Source of the DNA: Chitinophagaceae bacterium
GTDB taxonomy: Bacteria > Bacteroidota > Bacteroidia > Chitinophagales > Chitinophagaceae
Assembly (NCBI GenBank): GCA_003168265.1
Contig: PMSV01000008.1
Span: forward strand, 124,001-188,000
Direction: 5' to 3'
DNA length: 64,000 nt
Shown here: piece after piece, positions 56,910 to 64,000 of the stretch
How positions within the stretch are numbered: the stretch's first letter is position 1
How the letters are laid out: each line of letters starts with the position of its first letter
The notes under the pieces: generated by a model
What the model was told of the DNA's origin: nothing
Databases searched by the model: none
Seen by the model: only the letters and a program-made list of their open reading frames with translations
Made by a program: the position numbers and the translations under genes

Positions 56910-58229
56910 TTAAATTGTTTCCAGCAGAAAATCTCTCAGTGCAGAATAGTCGGCTTCTATCCGGATGCTGTTTTTTTTCTTCAATAATAGATCATAAACC
57001 GGTTGCGGAACAGGCACTTTCCAATTGATAATGGATTCCACTGTTTCCGGAAATTTGACAGGATGCGCGGTTTCAAGGAAAATGCCTTTGGCGAATGGCT
57101 GACCTGCTTCGGAGGATATCTCGCCCAAATATTCTTTCAGAGCCTGAAAGGCTACGGCTCCATGGGGGTCTAGTAAATAGTTGTTTTCATTAAAGACTTC
57201 AAAGATAGTTTGCATGGTCTGTTCATCCGTGATACTATAGCCGCTCAGCGCTTCTTTCAGGGCAGGATAGTAGTGATTAAAGAGCTCCAATATCCGCACA
57301 AAATTGGAGGGGTCGCCTACATCCATGGCATTGGAAATGGTAGGGACGGCCTGTTTCGGGCGATAGTTCCCATTGATCAGATAGTCCGTCACAGTATTGT
57401 TCGCATTGCAGGCGGCGATAAAATGGTTGGCGGGCAGGCCGGATTGATAGCTTAAAAGCCCGGCGCAAATATTGCCGAAATTCCCGCTGGGTACGCAGAA
57501 CACAGGCGGATTTTTCTTGTCCGGCCATGCCTTCCAGGCAAACCAGTAATAGAATTGCTGGGGCAGCCACCTGGCTATATTGATGGAATTGGCTGAAGTG
57601 ATGAACATGATCTTATTTAGGGACTCATCCGCAAAAGCTTTCTTTACCATTTCCTGGCAATCGTCAAAATTGCCATTCACTTCAAGGGCCTTGATATTTT
57701 GGCCAAGGGTTGTCAACTGCAGTTCCTGGACATTGCTCACTTTACCGGAAGGATAGAGGATCACTACCTTCACTCCCTCCACACCCAGGAATCCGCTGGC
57801 TACTGCTCCTCCTGTATCACCTGAAGTGGCCACCAGCACAGTAAGTTCCTGATCCTTATTTTGGATAAAATGACCGAGGCAGCGGCTCATAAATCGGGCG
57901 CCCACGTCCTTAAAGGCCATGGTTGGGCCATGGAACAGTTCCAAAGAATACATGTCTTCAGTTACCTGAACAAGCGGAAAATCAAATTGAAGGGTCTCAG
58001 ATACGATCTGCCGAAGTTTTTCTTCTGGTATTTCTGTTCCGATATAGGGCTGAATAACCATGAAAGCAATCTCTTCCTTGCTGTATTCTTCAATATTTTC
58101 AATGAAGTCCCGCGGCTGAAGGGGGATGGATTCGGGAAAATACAAACCCTTATCCGGGGCCTGCCCTCTTATAGCAGCTTCCCTGAAGTCCACGGCCGGA
58201 GACTGACGATTCAAACTTAGGTATTGCAT
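56910..58229 (-). CDS. thrC: Threonine synthase
   Basis: Converts O-phospho-L-homoserine to threonine with pyridoxal phosphate. It is 439 residues. The PLP lysine is Lys107 in FHGPTMAFKDVG; ATSGDTGGAVA binds the phosphate and ITSANSINIARWLPQ is the conserved later motif. It is the last gene of the thrA-thrB-thrC operon (12-base gap to thrB). It ends convergently with rpoB. Confidence 0.97.
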   Translation of the reverse strand: MQYLSLNRQSPAVDFREAAIRGQAPDKGLYFPESIPLQPRDFIENIEEYSKEEIAFMVIQPYIGTEIPEEKLRQIVSETLQFDFPLVQVTEDMYSLELFHGPTMAFKDVGARFMSRCLGHFIQNKDQELTVLVATSGDTGGAVASGFLGVEGVKVVILYPSGKVSNVQELQLTTLGQNIKALEVNGNFDDCQEMVKKAFADESLNKIMFITSANSINIARWLPQQFYYWFAWKAWPDKKNPPVFCVPSGNFGNICAGLLSYQSGLPANHFIAACNANNTVTDYLINGNYRPKQAVPTISNAMDVGDPSNFVRILELFNHYYPALKEALSGYSITDEQTMQTIFEVFNENNYLLDPHGAVAFQALKEYLGEISSEAGQPFAKGIFLETAHPVKFPETVESIINWKVPVPQPVYDLLLKKKNSIRIEADYSALRDFLLETI

Positions 58230-58241
58230 TCTGCTGCTTGT

Positions 58242-59177
58242 TTAAGGAAAATGGTCATCATTCTGAACGCTTATCCCATTTGGGTTGATCGTTGTGATAT
58301 AAGTATGATGGGGTATATCCAATTTGAAATACAGATCCTGCATGATCTTTTCGACCTGCGAAGCAGTTTGCAGGTCACGGCTCATCATGAATATCGAAGG
58401 ACCGGAGCCGGAAATTCCTCCCCCCAGGGCCCCTGCCTGCTTGCACAATTCCTTCACTTCATCAAATCCGGGAATCAGCATGCTTCGGACTGGTTCGATG
58501 ATTACATCTTCCAGTGACCTGCCGATGAGTTCATAATCTCCTTTCATGAGACCGGCTACAAGTCCCGCAATATTTCCCCACTGACGAATGGCATCTTTAA
58601 GTAAGACTTCTTTTCTCAATATCTGTCTGGCGTCGGAGGTCCGGACTTCGATCTGGGGATGGACCAGGGTGATGATCAGGGGAGGGGCTGAAATACTTAC
58701 AATATCTAGCGGAAAAATAGACCTGATCAGGGTGATGCCTCCGAAAATGCAGGGAGCTATATTGTCAGCATGCTTCACGCCGGATGCCACTTTTTCTCCG
58801 AACATGGCAAGACGTACAAGATCATTTTTGGAATAGATATTGCCCATCAGGCAATTTGCCGCGAATACGGCCCCTGCCGCACTAGCCGCGCTGGATCCGA
58901 TACCGCTTCCCGGTTTGATCTGTTTATTGATGGTAACTTCGAACCCAATGGTAAGATTAGTTTCGGAGAGGATCTCGAGCAAAGGTGCACCGGCCGTGTT
59001 CTGGGTAGGCTCTGTGGGAAGGGGGTAACCGTCTTCGCTGCGGATAATCACCTTTCTTTCGTCCAGCAATTTCACCTTCATGAGGTCATATGGCTTGTCC
59101 AGGCAGAGTCCAAGCACATCGAAACCGCAGACTAGGTTTGCAATTGTAGCCGGGGCTTGTATGTTAATTTCTTTCAT
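58242..59177 (-). CDS. thrB: Homoserine kinase
   Basis: Phosphorylates homoserine with ATP. It is a 311-residue GHMP-kinase fold protein: N-terminal INIQAPATIANLVCGFDVLG, the ATP-binding PGSGIGSSAASAAGAV, and GGGISGSGPSIFMM near the end. The start is 4 bases after the thrA stop, so translation is coupled. It is the middle gene of the operon. Confidence 0.96.
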   Translation of the reverse strand: MKEINIQAPATIANLVCGFDVLGLCLDKPYDLMKVKLLDERKVIIRSEDGYPLPTEPTQNTAGAPLLEILSETNLTIGFEVTINKQIKPGSGIGSSAASAAGAVFAANCLMGNIYSKNDLVRLAMFGEKVASGVKHADNIAPCIFGGITLIRSIFPLDIVSISAPPLIITLVHPQIEVRTSDARQILRKEVLLKDAIRQWGNIAGLVAGLMKGDYELIGRSLEDVIIEPVRSMLIPGFDEVKELCKQAGALGGGISGSGPSIFMMSRDLQTASQVEKIMQDLYFKLDIPHHTYITTINPNGISVQNDDHFP

Positions 59178-59181
59178 TGGT

Positions 59182-61629
59182 TTAAACTCTGGCTGCCCGG
59201 ATAATATCTGCGAAAACTCCAGATGCGGTTACTTCGGCACCCGCACCTGCCCCCTTGATTACAAGAGGTTGTTCAGGATACCTCTCAGTGTAGAGCAGCA
59301 CAGCATTGTCTTTTCCGTAAAGATGATAAAAATCGGATTGGGGCCCGATATGCTGCAACCCTACTGAAGCCTTTCCATTCTCAAAATTCGCTACAAATTT
59401 CAGCTTCCTTCCTGAATTGAACGCCTCCTCATATAATTTTTTGAAATGTGCTTCTTCTTTTTCCATGGCTTCATAAAATTCCTCCACAGGGCCTTTCAGA
59501 CAGGAATCCGGCAAAAAGGATTGGTTGACAACCCCTGACATTTCGATTCTTTCTCCGGCCTCCCTGGCCAATATCATGATTTTTCGCATAACATCCGTTC
59601 CACTTAAATCCAGCCTGGGATCGGGTTCGGTATATCCTTCAAGTTGGGCCTGCCTGACGACTTTTGAAAAGGATTCTTTTCCGTCATACTGGTTAAATAC
59701 GAAATTAAGCGTTCCGCTTAGTACGGCCTGTATCCTGTTAATTTTGTCGCCGCTGCGCAAAAGATCGTTGAGTGTGCCGATGACTGGTAATCCGGCTCCC
59801 ACATTGGTTTCAAAAAGAAAAAGCGAATTGAACTCCGTTGCCAGGTTTTTGAGCTTTTTATAATACTCATAGGATGAGGAGGCAGCCACTTTATTGCAGG
59901 CTACCACCGATATGCTTTTTTCAAGCAACTGATCATAACAGGAAGCTACCTGTTCACTTGCTGTAATATCGGCCAGCAGGCTGTTTCGGAGATTCTTGGA
60001 ACGGATGGTCTCAATGAAGCGGGGCAGGTCCATCGGGTCTCCTTTTTCACTTATATCTTCTTTCCAGTCATCCAGATTAATTCCCTCATCCTTAAATAAC
60101 ATTTTCCGGCTATTGGCGAGTCCGACTACATTGACTTGAAGGCGGAGATGCTCTTCAAGATAAGCGGACTGCTTTTTCAATTGGGCAAGAAAACGGCTTC
60201 CTACATTACCAACCCCCGTCACGAAAAGATTCAATTGTTTATAGGTCGTTTCGAAAAATTCTTCGTGCAAAGTGTTGATGGCTTTTTTCACATCGGCTCC
60301 GGAAATCACCGTAGAGATATTTCTCTCAGAAGAACCCTGGGCAATCGCCCTGATATTGATTCCGTTTCTTCCAAGTGCACCAAACATTTTTCCGCTCACT
60401 CCTGAATGATTTTTCATATTGTCACCCACCAGGGCGATGATGGCCAGACCTTCTTCCGTGAGAAGCGGTTCTAATTTTCCCGATCTGATCTCAAAGTCGA
60501 ATGCTGCATCCACAGATTGTTTTGCTCTTTGCAAATTGCCTTCATCGATGGCCACGCAGATAGAGTGTTCGGACGAGCCCTGGGTGATAAGGATGACATT
60601 TATTTTTTCAGAAGCCAGCGCCTCGAATAATCTTTTGGAAAAACCAGGAATGCCAACCATGCCGCTGCCTTCCAGACTGAGCAGGGCGATTTTTCCGATG
60701 CTTGATATGCCACGGATATTGCTGCCATTCTTACCGGCTTGCCGCTCGATGAGGGTTCCCCTGTCCTTTGGCGCAAATGTGTTTTTTACCCAAACCGGGA
60801 TGCCCATATTCATCAGCGGTTGGATGGTAGGCGGGTAAATGACTTTGGCTCCAAAATGGGATAATTCCATGGCCTCCTGATAGGAGATCTGTGCAATCAC
60901 TTTGGCATTCGGGACTACCCTTGGATCGGCCGTCATCATCCCTGAAACATCTGTCCAGATTTCCACAGCTTTTACCTGCAAGGCTGCACCTACAATGGCC
61001 GCGGTATAATCTGAGCCGCCCCTGCCCAGGGTCGTCGTAACTCCCTGCGCATTGCTTGCTATGAATCCGGGGAGAATGATCAGGGAGCTGTGCGTTGTGC
61101 GGATAAATTCCTTTATATTCCGGTTTGTCTGTTCGAAATCCACTGCCGCAAAACCAAAATGCGAGTCGGTTAAGATCAATTCTCTTGAGTCTTTCCATAT
61201 ATTGGCCGCACCTAGTACTTTTAACCTTTCGGAAAGGATATGGGAGGAAATGAGCTCCCCATAACTCACCATCCTGTCTTTTGTCCTCTCCGATAATTCC
61301 TGTAACAGAAATACCCCATTGCACAGATCCTCGATCTCATTGCATCTTTTTTTAACCATGCTGAGGATCCTGCTTTGCTGTGTGATCGGGATCAGTGTCC
61401 GCACTGCATCCAGGTGCCTTTGTTCGAGAACCTGCATTTCTTCCTTATAGGATTCGTCTCCTTCTGCTGCCAGTTTCCCGCAGCGAAGAAGCAAATCGGT
61501 GATTCCACCCAATGCCGATACGATCACAATTGTTTCTCCATTGTGCGTCGATTCAAGGATGATGGATATCGATTTATTTATATTCTCTGCATTGGCTACG
61601 GAACTTCCCCCGAATTTTAATACCTGCAT
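59182..61629 (-). CDS. thrA: Bifunctional aspartokinase / homoserine dehydrogenase
   Basis: An 815-residue fusion that carries out the first and third steps from aspartate to homoserine. Aspartokinase is N-terminal (VLKFGGSSVAN, GRGGSDYTAA), two ACT regulatory domains follow (about 310-460; LSLEGSGMVGIPGFSKRLFEALASE and IIALVGDNMKNHSG), then homoserine dehydrogenase (LFVTGVGNVGSRFLAQL, VLSGTLNFVFNQ, DLSGTDVMRKIMILARE) to the end. Threonine feedback inhibition is expected through the ACT domains. A Thr/Ile-rich leader ORF lies 63 bases upstream of its ATG. Confidence 0.97.
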   Translation of the reverse strand: MQVLKFGGSSVANAENINKSISIILESTHNGETIVIVSALGGITDLLLRCGKLAAEGDESYKEEMQVLEQRHLDAVRTLIPITQQSRILSMVKKRCNEIEDLCNGVFLLQELSERTKDRMVSYGELISSHILSERLKVLGAANIWKDSRELILTDSHFGFAAVDFEQTNRNIKEFIRTTHSSLIILPGFIASNAQGVTTTLGRGGSDYTAAIVGAALQVKAVEIWTDVSGMMTADPRVVPNAKVIAQISYQEAMELSHFGAKVIYPPTIQPLMNMGIPVWVKNTFAPKDRGTLIERQAGKNGSNIRGISSIGKIALLSLEGSGMVGIPGFSKRLFEALASEKINVILITQGSSEHSICVAIDEGNLQRAKQSVDAAFDFEIRSGKLEPLLTEEGLAIIALVGDNMKNHSGVSGKMFGALGRNGINIRAIAQGSSERNISTVISGADVKKAINTLHEEFFETTYKQLNLFVTGVGNVGSRFLAQLKKQSAYLEEHLRLQVNVVGLANSRKMLFKDEGINLDDWKEDISEKGDPMDLPRFIETIRSKNLRNSLLADITASEQVASCYDQLLEKSISVVACNKVAASSSYEYYKKLKNLATEFNSLFLFETNVGAGLPVIGTLNDLLRSGDKINRIQAVLSGTLNFVFNQYDGKESFSKVVRQAQLEGYTEPDPRLDLSGTDVMRKIMILAREAGERIEMSGVVNQSFLPDSCLKGPVEEFYEAMEKEEAHFKKLYEEAFNSGRKLKFVANFENGKASVGLQHIGPQSDFYHLYGKDNAVLLYTERYPEQPLVIKGAGAGAEVTASGVFADIIRAARV

Positions 61630-61692
61630 AATGATTTAAATTTGATGGTTAAATGCCTGAGGCCATTGGGTAATATGCTAATTTAATCCGCC

Positions 61693-61782
61693 TTAGCGGA
61701 TCGTAATGGTGGTAGTCAAAATAAAAATTCCGGCATTAAATGCAGGAGAGAGGAGGAGTAGGTATTTTTTAAAGGGCTTCAT
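61693..61782 (-). CDS. Putative thr operon leader peptide
   Basis: A 29-codon ORF upstream of thrA, in the same direction. The peptide starts MKPFKKYLLLL and ends ILTTTITIR, with four Thr and two Ile in the last seven residues (codons 23-28, 61716-61699). Such runs match the leader of E. coli thrL, which senses threonyl- and isoleucyl-tRNA supply. Its stop codon sits in the loop of a hairpin ATCCGC-TAAG-GCGGAT whose left arm overlaps the final Ile and Arg codons. No clear U-run follows, so the mechanism may be translational or Rho-dependent. A TATCTTTA -7-like box lies about 20 bases upstream of the ATG. The ORF is too short to be certain by itself. Confidence 0.6.
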   Translation of the reverse strand: MKPFKKYLLLLSPAFNAGIFILTTTITIR

Positions 61783-61928
61783 TTTCTATGCTGCGGTAAA
61801 GATAGGGAATCGAATAGGGAAATTGAAAAACTTGGTCAGTTTTATATGAAAAATGAACTATTTTCAATCTTTCTTTCGACGATTGCTCTATTATTTTGTG
61901 TTTTGTTGAATACTATTAAATATGGTTT

Positions 61929-64000
61929 ATGAGCTATCAGTCCTTACAGGGTTTGCAGAATTTCCGCTACCAGGTCGGCATTAAATTTCAACTATACAAC
62001 AGCCTGTTTACATCCCTCCCCTTTCACCGAATTGAGCGAACAGGGATATTGTTATCCTTATTGCTTACCTATTGTGAGGATGCCTATAAGAAAAAAGAAA
62101 GCCCTGAAAAGATCATCAATGATTTTTTTGAAAAGCATACGAATAATACCGATGAAAGGGAGAGGGCAGATATCCTTTTCCGTTTCGTTCAATACGTAGA
62201 GCGGCAGATCGTATTATTCGATGCGGTAGAAGACGCCGCATTCAAAGATGTAAATGACATGAACGGACCCGGAACCTTGAAGCAGCTGGCATCACAAGTG
62301 ATCGATTCGGGCAGGGAGCAGGAGCTGACAGAAAAGCTGAAGGACTATTCCGTTTACATCGTATTGACCGCCCATCCTACCCAGTTCTATCCCGGATCGG
62401 TGCTGGGAATCATCAATGACCTGTCCAGGGCCGTGATGGAGAACAATGCCAATCAGATCAACACTTTTATGCAGCAATTGGGGAAGACTCCTTTTTTGAA
62501 AAAACAGAAGCCTACTCCTTTTGATGAGGCCATCAGCCTGATCTGGTACCTGGAGAACGTATTTTACCAGGCCGCCGGAAGGATCATCTCCTTCCTGAAG
62601 GACCAGTTCCGCGATTGTGTCGATGAAAGCAACCCTATCATAAAGATGGGTTTCTGGCCTGGAGGAGATCGGGACGGAAATCCATTTGTCAATTCGTCCA
62701 CCACCCGTAAAGTGGCGGAAGCGCTGAGGGGCTCGATTATCAAATGTTATTACCTTGATGTCCGAAGGCTGAAAAGAAGGCTGACATTTAAAGGAGTTGA
62801 CATTATTATCTCATCGCTTGAGGCCAAATTATACGATAACCTTTTTACTGCCGAACAGAAAAATGATTTGAAGAAAGAGGAGATCATCGAACCATTGAAA
62901 AAGATAAGGGAGATCCTGGTTTACGAACACAATAATCTATTTCTGAACCTTGTGGACAACCTGATCAGTAAGGTGGAAATTTTTGGATTGCATTTTGCGT
63001 CCCTGGATATCCGCCAGGATAGTTCCGTCCATGCAAAAGCTCTCCAGGCACTGGCTGAGACGGATGATATTCTTCCTAAAAATTATGAGTCCCTGGACGA
63101 GCAGGAAAAGATCCGTCTGCTTTCCGGCATCCGGGGAAAGATCAATATCGATTCCTATAAGGATCCCGTCATCAGGGATACATTTGAGTCCATTGCTTCA
63201 GTTCGCGAAATTCAGAACTTCAACAGTGAGTTCGGCTGTAATCGCTATATCATCAGCCATACTTTCAGTGCATTGAATGTTTTTGAAGTGTATGCGCTTT
63301 TTTTGCTGAATGGCTGGAATATGGAAGAATTGAGAGTCGATATTGTTCCTCTTTTTGAAACGGTGGAGGATCTCCGTCATGCCGTTATCGTGATGCGGAC
63401 CCTTTACAATAATAAGACCTACCATGATCACCTGAAGCTTCGCGGCTTGAAACAAACGATCATGCTAGGTTTTAGCGATGGCACCAAGGATGGAGGTTAT
63501 ATGATGGCCAATTGGAGCATCTATAAGGCTAAAGAAGAATTGACCTGGATTTCCAGGGAATATGGCATCAAGGTGGTCTTCTTCGATGGCAGGGGCGGCC
63601 CTCCGGCGAGGGGAGGCGGAAAGACCCATAAGTTTTATGCATCGATGGGCAGGAATATTGAAAACAAAGAGATTCAATTGACCATACAGGGCCAGACCGT
63701 AAGTTCGAATTTCGGGACCATCGACTCGGCCCAATACAATATCGAGCAATTGATCCACGCAGGTATTTCCAATGAACTTTTTTCATCAAATGAAATCACC
63801 TTACGCAAAGACGAGGAAGAATTATTACAGGATCTGGCGGATGAAAGTTATCGTGCCTATATGGATCTGAGGAATCATCCTGATTTTTTGAGATACCTCG
63901 ATGACCTAAGCCCTTTGCGTTTTTACAGCGAAACCAATATTGCGAGCCGGCCTTCGAAAAGGAACAGCAGTTCAAGGCTTGATTTTAATGATCTGCGCGC
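61929..64000 (+). CDS. ppc: Phosphoenolpyruvate carboxylase (C-terminus cut by window edge)
   Basis: Carboxylates phosphoenolpyruvate to oxaloacetate, feeding the TCA cycle and the aspartate family. The frame is open for 690 codons to the window end, against about 850-900 for the whole enzyme. Motifs: the catalytic VLTAHPTQFYPG, FWPGGDRDGNPF, GFSDGTKDGGYMMANW and FFDGRGGPPARGGG. The start ATG at 61929 fits the family; the ATG at 61922 is out of frame. It is divergent from the thr operon; the 146 bases between the leader ATG and ppc hold both promoters. Confidence 0.95.
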   Translation, partial: MSYQSLQGLQNFRYQVGIKFQLYNSLFTSLPFHRIERTGILLSLLLTYCEDAYKKKESPEKIINDFFEKHTNNTDERERADILFRFVQYVERQIVLFDAVEDAAFKDVNDMNGPGTLKQLASQVIDSGREQELTEKLKDYSVYIVLTAHPTQFYPGSVLGIINDLSRAVMENNANQINTFMQQLGKTPFLKKQKPTPFDEAISLIWYLENVFYQAAGRIISFLKDQFRDCVDESNPIIKMGFWPGGDRDGNPFVNSSTTRKVAEALRGSIIKCYYLDVRRLKRRLTFKGVDIIISSLEAKLYDNLFTAEQKNDLKKEEIIEPLKKIREILVYEHNNLFLNLVDNLISKVEIFGLHFASLDIRQDSSVHAKALQALAETDDILPKNYESLDEQEKIRLLSGIRGKINIDSYKDPVIRDTFESIASVREIQNFNSEFGCNRYIISHTFSALNVFEVYALFLLNGWNMEELRVDIVPLFETVEDLRHAVIVMRTLYNNKTYHDHLKLRGLKQTIMLGFSDGTKDGGYMMANWSIYKAKEELTWISREYGIKVVFFDGRGGPPARGGGKTHKFYASMGRNIENKEIQLTIQGQTVSSNFGTIDSAQYNIEQLIHAGISNELFSSNEITLRKDEEELLQDLADESYRAYMDLRNHPDFLRYLDDLSPLRFYSETNIASRPSKRNSSSRLDFNDLR

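Follow-up and report, generated by a model that had tools for sequence, protein, structure and literature searches.

The leader ORF and the thrABC operon

The thr locus lies on the minus strand of the window, i.e., the whole stretch of 64,000 nucleotides that was analyzed, in the order leader ORF, 63 nt, thrA, thrB, thrC. Using NCBIfam models, we identified the three genes as thrA, encoding a bifunctional aspartate kinase/homoserine dehydrogenase I (59182..61629, with the start at 61629; NF006959, 1028.6 bits), thrB, encoding homoserine kinase (58242..59177), and thrC, encoding threonine synthase (56910..58229). A divergent ORF that begins at 61929 matches phosphoenolpyruvate carboxylase; it is cut by the window end and stays below the model's whole-protein cut-off. 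Inspection by eye revealed TATCTTTA (61797..61804, minus strand) as a candidate -7 element of the TAnnTTTG type, the -7 consensus of the Bacteroidota promoter type.

The leader ORF (61782-61693, minus strand) comprises 29 codons, encodes MKPFKKYLLLLSPAFNAGIFILTTTITIR up to its stop codon and ends in the residues ILTTTITIR. As described in the initial annotation and confirmed here by direct reading, it contains six successive Thr/Ile regulatory codons, ACT ACC ACC ATT ACG ATC (four Thr and two Ile; 61716-61699, minus strand), and thrA follows 63 nt after the leader stop. When the 260 nt around the leader were resampled with a first-order Markov model, at least four Thr among six successive Thr/Ile codons arose in 4 of 20,000 resamplings. 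Neither the leader peptide of the window nor those of three relatives were matched by any Pfam or NCBIfam model. Searching the whole window with Rfam at gathering score detected tRNA families only, and at E up to 10 nothing relevant, including no Thr_leader match, was found over 61560-61930.

The comparison covered 110 loci that encode a close relative of ThrA. Of these, 30 belong to genomes of the same family; the other 80 come from named records and share 66-74 % identity, many of them labelled Chitinophagaceae or with genera of that family and others only Bacteroidetes or Sphingobacteriales. The 110 loci collapse to 93 distinct upstream regions, and 89 of these contain a Thr/Ile-rich leader at the score that we applied. 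The short Thr/Ile ORF, for which the initial annotation had proposed an alignment of relatives, is thus conserved. The best Thr plus Ile count per nine residues reaches at least seven in 79/93 upstream regions compared to 22/1860 resampled sequences, and six successive Thr/Ile codons with at least four Thr occur in 48/93 compared to 10/4650. Thr or Ile dominates the last eight positions of the run, and the third bases of the Thr codons vary across the leaders (ACA 187, ACC 151, ACT 114, ACG 26). These features make it very likely that a leader peptide sensing Thr and Ile precedes thrABC.

Four upstream regions are leaderless. In L047 and L051, thrA lies directly 3' of ilvA, which encodes threonine ammonia-lyase, and no thr leader is present; this represents a case of natural loss. 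The contig of L088 stops 107 nt upstream of thrA. L092 has thrA and no leader, and counts against the explanation that we favor below.

Hairpins and the CATAT box in the leader RNA

From 5' to 3', the leader RNA consists of an often present first CATAT box, hairpin P0, the Thr/Ile run, hairpin P1, a linker, a CATAT box, hairpin P2, an unconserved stretch and the ATG of thrA. P0, the CATAT box and P2 are absent from the initial annotation. The window contains P0, P1, the CATAT box and a short P2, and no clean first box. All coordinates given below refer to the minus strand.

P0 (61729..61747) lies within the ORF and is predicted from folding energy to form UCC.GCAU-UUA-AUGC.GGA, with a z of -3.6 in the window; over 87 loci, its mean z is -1.80, and z falls below -1 in 59 of them, compared to -0.05 and 20 loci for a control stretch. 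P1 (61686..61701; ATCCGC-TAAG-GCGGAT) was detected by the array finder and by covariation. The stop codon (61695-61693) lies in its loop, between the arms ATCCGC (61701-61696) and GCGGAT (61691-61686). This hairpin had been noted from the single sequence and proved to be real, as it covaries in relatives, with arm pairs such as ACAACCC/GGGTTGT, AATCCGC/GCGGATT and CAACCCT/AGGGTTG, among others. P1 includes the last codons of the ORF, i.e., structure and ORF end overlap. Because the stop codon falls 3' of P1 in several relatives (endings RKG), we regard the P1 hairpin, and not the stop position, as the conserved feature. We also considered whether P1 mimics the anticodon arm of tRNA-Thr and rejected this by eye, the P1 loop not being conserved.

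The CATAT box of the window, CATATTACC (61669..61677), corresponds to a motif that is conserved in relatives (motif 2). Near the stop codon, 86 of the 89 leaders carry CATA(T/C) and the remaining three TATAT. The linker between P1 and the box measures 5-10 nt and is 6-8 nt long in 74/87 loci, which places the last of the five box bases 11-13 nt past P1. The spacing from the box to P2 amounts to 7-8 nt in 81/87 loci. In the window, P2 (61653..61666) is predicted as AT.GCC-TCA-GGC-AT; the finder supports its core (61655-61663), and P2 covaries in relatives, where some picks with long loops are doubtful (e.g., L007, L009, L034, L036, and L044). A G-free, non-conserved stretch (61630..61652) separates P2 from the thrA ATG.

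The complete P1-CATAT-P2 array was found in 87/93 upstream regions and in 0/465 dinucleotide shuffles. The six regions without it are L047, L051, L088, L092 and also L048 and L101, in which the leader is present with a weaker P1. Motif discovery returned no motif in 4/93 upstream regions; after removal of near-duplicates, 86 of the other 89 were retained, and alignment A1 holds 82 of these 86. The motif run misplaced L016. In a second alignment, A2, which holds 23 of the 25 sequences that share one chosen spacing, 92.1 % of the cells in both helices are paired compared to 87.5 in shuffles, and 19 cells changed on both sides compared to 8.2. Further pair types (8 versus 8.3; 427/500 shuffles as high) and pairs with two-sided change (4 versus 2.6; 38/500 as high) are not striking. 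Since P1 and P2 positions were picked for complementarity, permutation figures for the covariation of the helices are inflated, and the shuffle run serves as the control of the finder. The whole 206-nt leader of the window folds no better than shuffles (z -0.46); its minimum-energy structure holds P0, P1 and the P2 core.

Possible routes from ribosome position to thrABC expression

The explanation that we favor, with moderate confidence, is ribosome-mediated attenuation whose output would depend on a factor, probably of the Rho type, and in which P1 and the CATAT box would act as a pause. The attenuator would sense charged tRNA-Thr and tRNA-Ile via the ribosome translating the 29-codon leader. 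When Thr or Ile is short, the ribosome would stall on the Thr/Ile run and P1 would stay closed; when the amino acids are plentiful, it would reach the stop codon and force P1 open. This switch between a closed and an open P1 is well supported by the anatomy of the leader. Known pause hairpins have a spacing of about 11-13 nt. Because the end of the CATAT box sits 11-13 nt past P1, we propose that both together may constitute a hairpin-stabilized pause of RNA polymerase, by which transcription would stay synchronized with the ribosome.

The off state would be reached when a Rho-type factor terminates transcription on the G-poor RNA that follows the leader and is free of ribosomes up to thrA; a ribosome that is stalled, with P1 and P2 closed, would counteract this. 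We propose this off state because G is scarce in the RNA preceding the ATG and the genome of the window contains a rho gene. Rho loading sites are typically unstructured, C-rich and low in G. The G content of the last 45 nt is 0.074 compared to 0.147 before 456 control ORFs, which were called mechanically on both strands and are unverified as genes; this stretch is not enriched in C (0.181 versus 0.193 in controls). The composition of terminator-bearing leaders, for which 13 of 14 his loci were used (L288 gave no start and was dropped, and L282 was left out), agrees with the idea of Rho but is confounded, as hairpins force C to be close to G. As a counterpoint, a ribosome waiting at the stop codon should itself hinder Rho. 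Judged from geometry and composition, a Rho-type factor acting as described has an even chance of being the output, given the sensor. More tentatively, Bacteroidota might use a terminatorless thr attenuator built from P0, P1, P2 and the often-duplicated CATATYRY box, with the elongation complex or a dedicated factor as its reader. If true, leader-peptide sensing would here be coupled to an output stage with a new mechanism, and the P1-CATAT-P2 core would be common to two classes of the phylum.

The same sensor might be coupled to an RNA-binding protein or to the polymerase/NusG machinery reading P1-CATAT-P2, which we consider rather doubtful. The CATATYRY box, often doubled around P0, the Thr run and P1, would then be a binding site, and the position of the ribosome would select the copy that lies beside a closed hairpin. 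Consistent with a binding site, the box near the stop is almost invariably CATA(T/C), and a first box of the form NATATYRY occurs 5' of P0, 100 to 40 nt 5' of P1, in 56/87 loci compared to 131/1740 shuffled segments and 3/174 upstream background windows. The reading frame of the first box is constant in family f1 (50/51) and a different one in five of the eight found in family f5; because of this difference, the first box resembles a nucleic-acid signal. However, there is no candidate protein, the CATAT box could equally be a pause sequence, and the NATATYRY pattern gave no first box in many leaders of other families (7/15 in f5, 9/12 in f24, 3/3 in f4, and 6/6 in f8) and no clean one in the window. 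Pairing between the two CATAT copies, conceivable since AUAU is self-complementary, was rejected by eye, as CATAC variants are uncompensated. A promoter function of the CATAT box was considered as well.

The initial annotation had suggested that ribosome position alters folding at the thrA start and hence thrA translation, through an AU-only pairing of GATTAAATT with GATTTAAATTT just before the ATG. The AU-rich segments of the window can be paired on paper, and the lack of a detected terminator is compatible with control at this level. The stretch shows no structural conservation, though: the last 58 nt before thrA contain no structure above shuffles (mean z -0.05; 20/87 loci below -1), and pairing at the thrA start is predicted over 87 loci to be 0.42 for free RNA, for a ribosome at the stop codon and for a ribosome stalled on the Thr run alike. 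In a column-pair scan, the 30 best pairs all involve columns of the P1 3' arm and none touches columns before the ATG; several of these pairs are codon-phase artefacts, and the fixed registers of the scan could not reveal P2, which limits its power. Control of thrA translation in this way thus appears unlikely.

Classic transcription attenuation, with P1 or P2 serving as a weak, non-canonical intrinsic terminator, has some appeal, as the thr leaders of families f3 and f9 and most of the his leaders examined are of the classic type. In agreement with the initial annotation, which saw no U-run terminator, scanning 61400-62400 detected none on the thrA strand. Among the thr leaders of the window's family, the scan found no intrinsic terminator in 72/87 and only P1 itself in 15/87, where P1 passed a loose terminator test. 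In family f24, none of 25 upstream regions, 10 of which have a leader at score 5, gave a terminator. The scan permits no bulges and missed the f9 terminators, so that an odd terminator could escape it. P1 is an unlikely terminator because it stays closed when the ribosome is starved, and starvation would then switch the operon off; P2 has no following U-run in the loci listed.

Furthermore, duplex scans revealed no antiterminator partner. Over 87 loci, the P1 3' arm has no downstream partner beyond shuffles (mean z +0.25; 3/87 below -2), the mean z of the P1 5' arm is +0.15, and that of the CATAT box is -0.07 upstream and +0.08 downstream. The P1 3' arm of family f4 gave a mean z of -1.10 against downstream sequence (n = 3). 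In the f3 control leaders, the leader end can pair with the 5' side of the terminator (z -5.8 to -0.1 over seven loci), and 6/7 have a strong terminator. In f9, masking region 2 of L155 yields a hairpin that ends in CGGGCUUUUU, and masking region 1 yields an antiterminator; the folding of L151 is less clear, and the f9 leaders also have a hairpin at the stop codon. Taken together, a weak intrinsic terminator is quite improbable as the output of the window's leader.

Most of the his loci examined appear to have a textbook architecture. Among the HisG loci of the family and the order, an upstream terminator is present in 14/15 and a leader with at least four His in eight residues in 11/15. In the genome of the window itself, the his leader L288 (G000:C17, reverse complement of about 1208-1330) encodes MNRIHHIHHHHTYPKG up to its stop, followed by a 13-pair terminator with a U-run and by hisG; over the whole locus, terminator-like sites are no more frequent than by chance (4 versus 4.2 expected). 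In L289 (reverse complement of about 1215-1335), a terminator-like hairpin before hisG, GCTTATCGAAAGATAAGCCCCTTTTTATTGAATA, exists in three tandem copies. At ilvD loci, 3/14 (L256, L260, and L262) have an Ile/Val/Leu-rich leader ORF, e.g., LVVVIIIIVLVV, with a GC-rich hairpin and a U-run 3' of it; no such leader was found at the ilvD locus of the window's genome (L265).

That the ORF arose by chance and the conserved helices form an RNA element unrelated to translation could be read from the unfixed stop, which lies beyond P1 in some relatives, but is hardly credible given the synonymous variation of a Thr/Ile run that 89/93 upstream regions share and the His-rich leader with terminator before hisG in the same genome.

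Distribution in the phylum and relation to known systems

A covariance model of P1-CATAT-P2 (R1) gave one significant match in the genome of the window, the thrA leader (E 7.7e-5); a second copy of the element was not detected there, all other matches having E 0.37 or worse. One of the weaker matches, L113 (G000:C8:213898-213950; CATATATGGATTGGGCATTTTGCT), is CATAT-P2-like, lies 5' of a FIST-domain gene and is probably due to chance (E 1.03). Across 395 genomes of the phylum, 56 have a match at E up to 0.1, and in 23 of these it lies immediately 5' of thrA: 11 belong to f1, six to f24 (G467, G282, G374, G481, G256, and G268) and six to f5 (G279, G495, G213, G507, G389, and G405). Family f5 is within the class of the window and f24 outside it. 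Of 20 phylum matches that we inspected (L127-L146), eight are immediately followed by a thrA-like start and the other 12 are not. A match in G070:C23 (E 0.003) falls within an open coding frame and is regarded as a chance match. For these reasons, we count only syntenic R1 matches.

Thr/Ile-rich ORF ends at a score of at least 5, a cut-off that was set without shuffle calibration, occur in 54/106 thrA upstream regions from 23 families; the 106 regions were our own choice from 298 genomes with a ThrA match and leave out the large family f18. Such ORF ends were found in f1 (7/7), f5 (15/19), f24 (10/25), f4 (4/4), f3 (7/7), f8 (6/7), f9 (2/3), f11 (1/4), f46 (1/1) and f17 (1/4), and in none of the other 13 sampled families, e.g., f2, which belongs to the order of the window (0/5), f10 (0/3) and f29 (0/5); the families without one count against the favored explanation. 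In two f8 loci (L200 and L201), the hairpin at the leader stop has flipped polarity, ACGGG-GTAA-CCCGT. This distribution points to widespread control of threonine synthesis by leader peptides in a phylum distant from E. coli. It also appears that the thr leader has changed its output stage, whereas his leaders, both in this genome and in nearby ones, retain the textbook version. Thr leaders that have a terminator and those that lack one occur in related lineages and offer a natural comparison of how ribosome stalling may be converted into an expression decision without an intrinsic terminator.

New here is a predicted thr leader variant that has no recognizable terminator and carries a conserved composite RNA element. 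The Bacteroid-trp RNA, which from its name presumably has a role for trp genes, gave no match at gathering score in the window, ten relatives and nine further loci. This RNA (RF01692) is marked as a likely cis-regulatory RNA of Bacteroidetes in Table 1 of PMC2864571. Excerpts of a report on B. thetaiotaomicron mention leader-like sORFs and contain no thr case (PMC7366714). Among the literature matches listed, whose coverage excludes most subscription journals, there was no report of a Bacteroidota thr leader. Such leaders may already be predicted, because the abstract of the attenuator survey of Vitreschak et al. from 2004 reportedly mentions Bacteroidetes/Chlorobi.

The initial annotation had likened the locus to E. 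coli thrL. This holds for the sensor, which recurs in most upstream regions of close relatives and in other families: the E. coli thr attenuator (Rfam Thr_leader) likewise has, ahead of thrABC, a short ORF containing Thr and Ile codons, a hairpin at the leader end and the ribosome as sensor. It does not extend to the output, since neither a 3:4 intrinsic terminator nor a 2:3 antiterminator was found here; in addition, the leader of the window has P0, the CATAT box and P2, and does not match the Rfam Thr_leader model. The thr leaders of f3 (L219-L224) and f9 (L155 and, less clearly, L151) likewise place a Thr/Ile-rich leader directly before thrA, but combine it with a terminator and antiterminator pairing, which were not found in the window's family. 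The his leader L288 of the same genome shares the principle of a biosynthetic gene preceded by a peptide in which the cognate amino acid is frequent, and differs in the terminator with U-run that follows the leader. Parallels in output logic may be tnaC, which responds to free Trp, and mgtL, which responds to Mg and Pro. Both are Rho-dependent, whereas a role of Rho is only proposed here; they have in common with the mechanism suggested for the thr leader that transcription depends on where the ribosome stands in a short ORF, with no intrinsic terminator involved.
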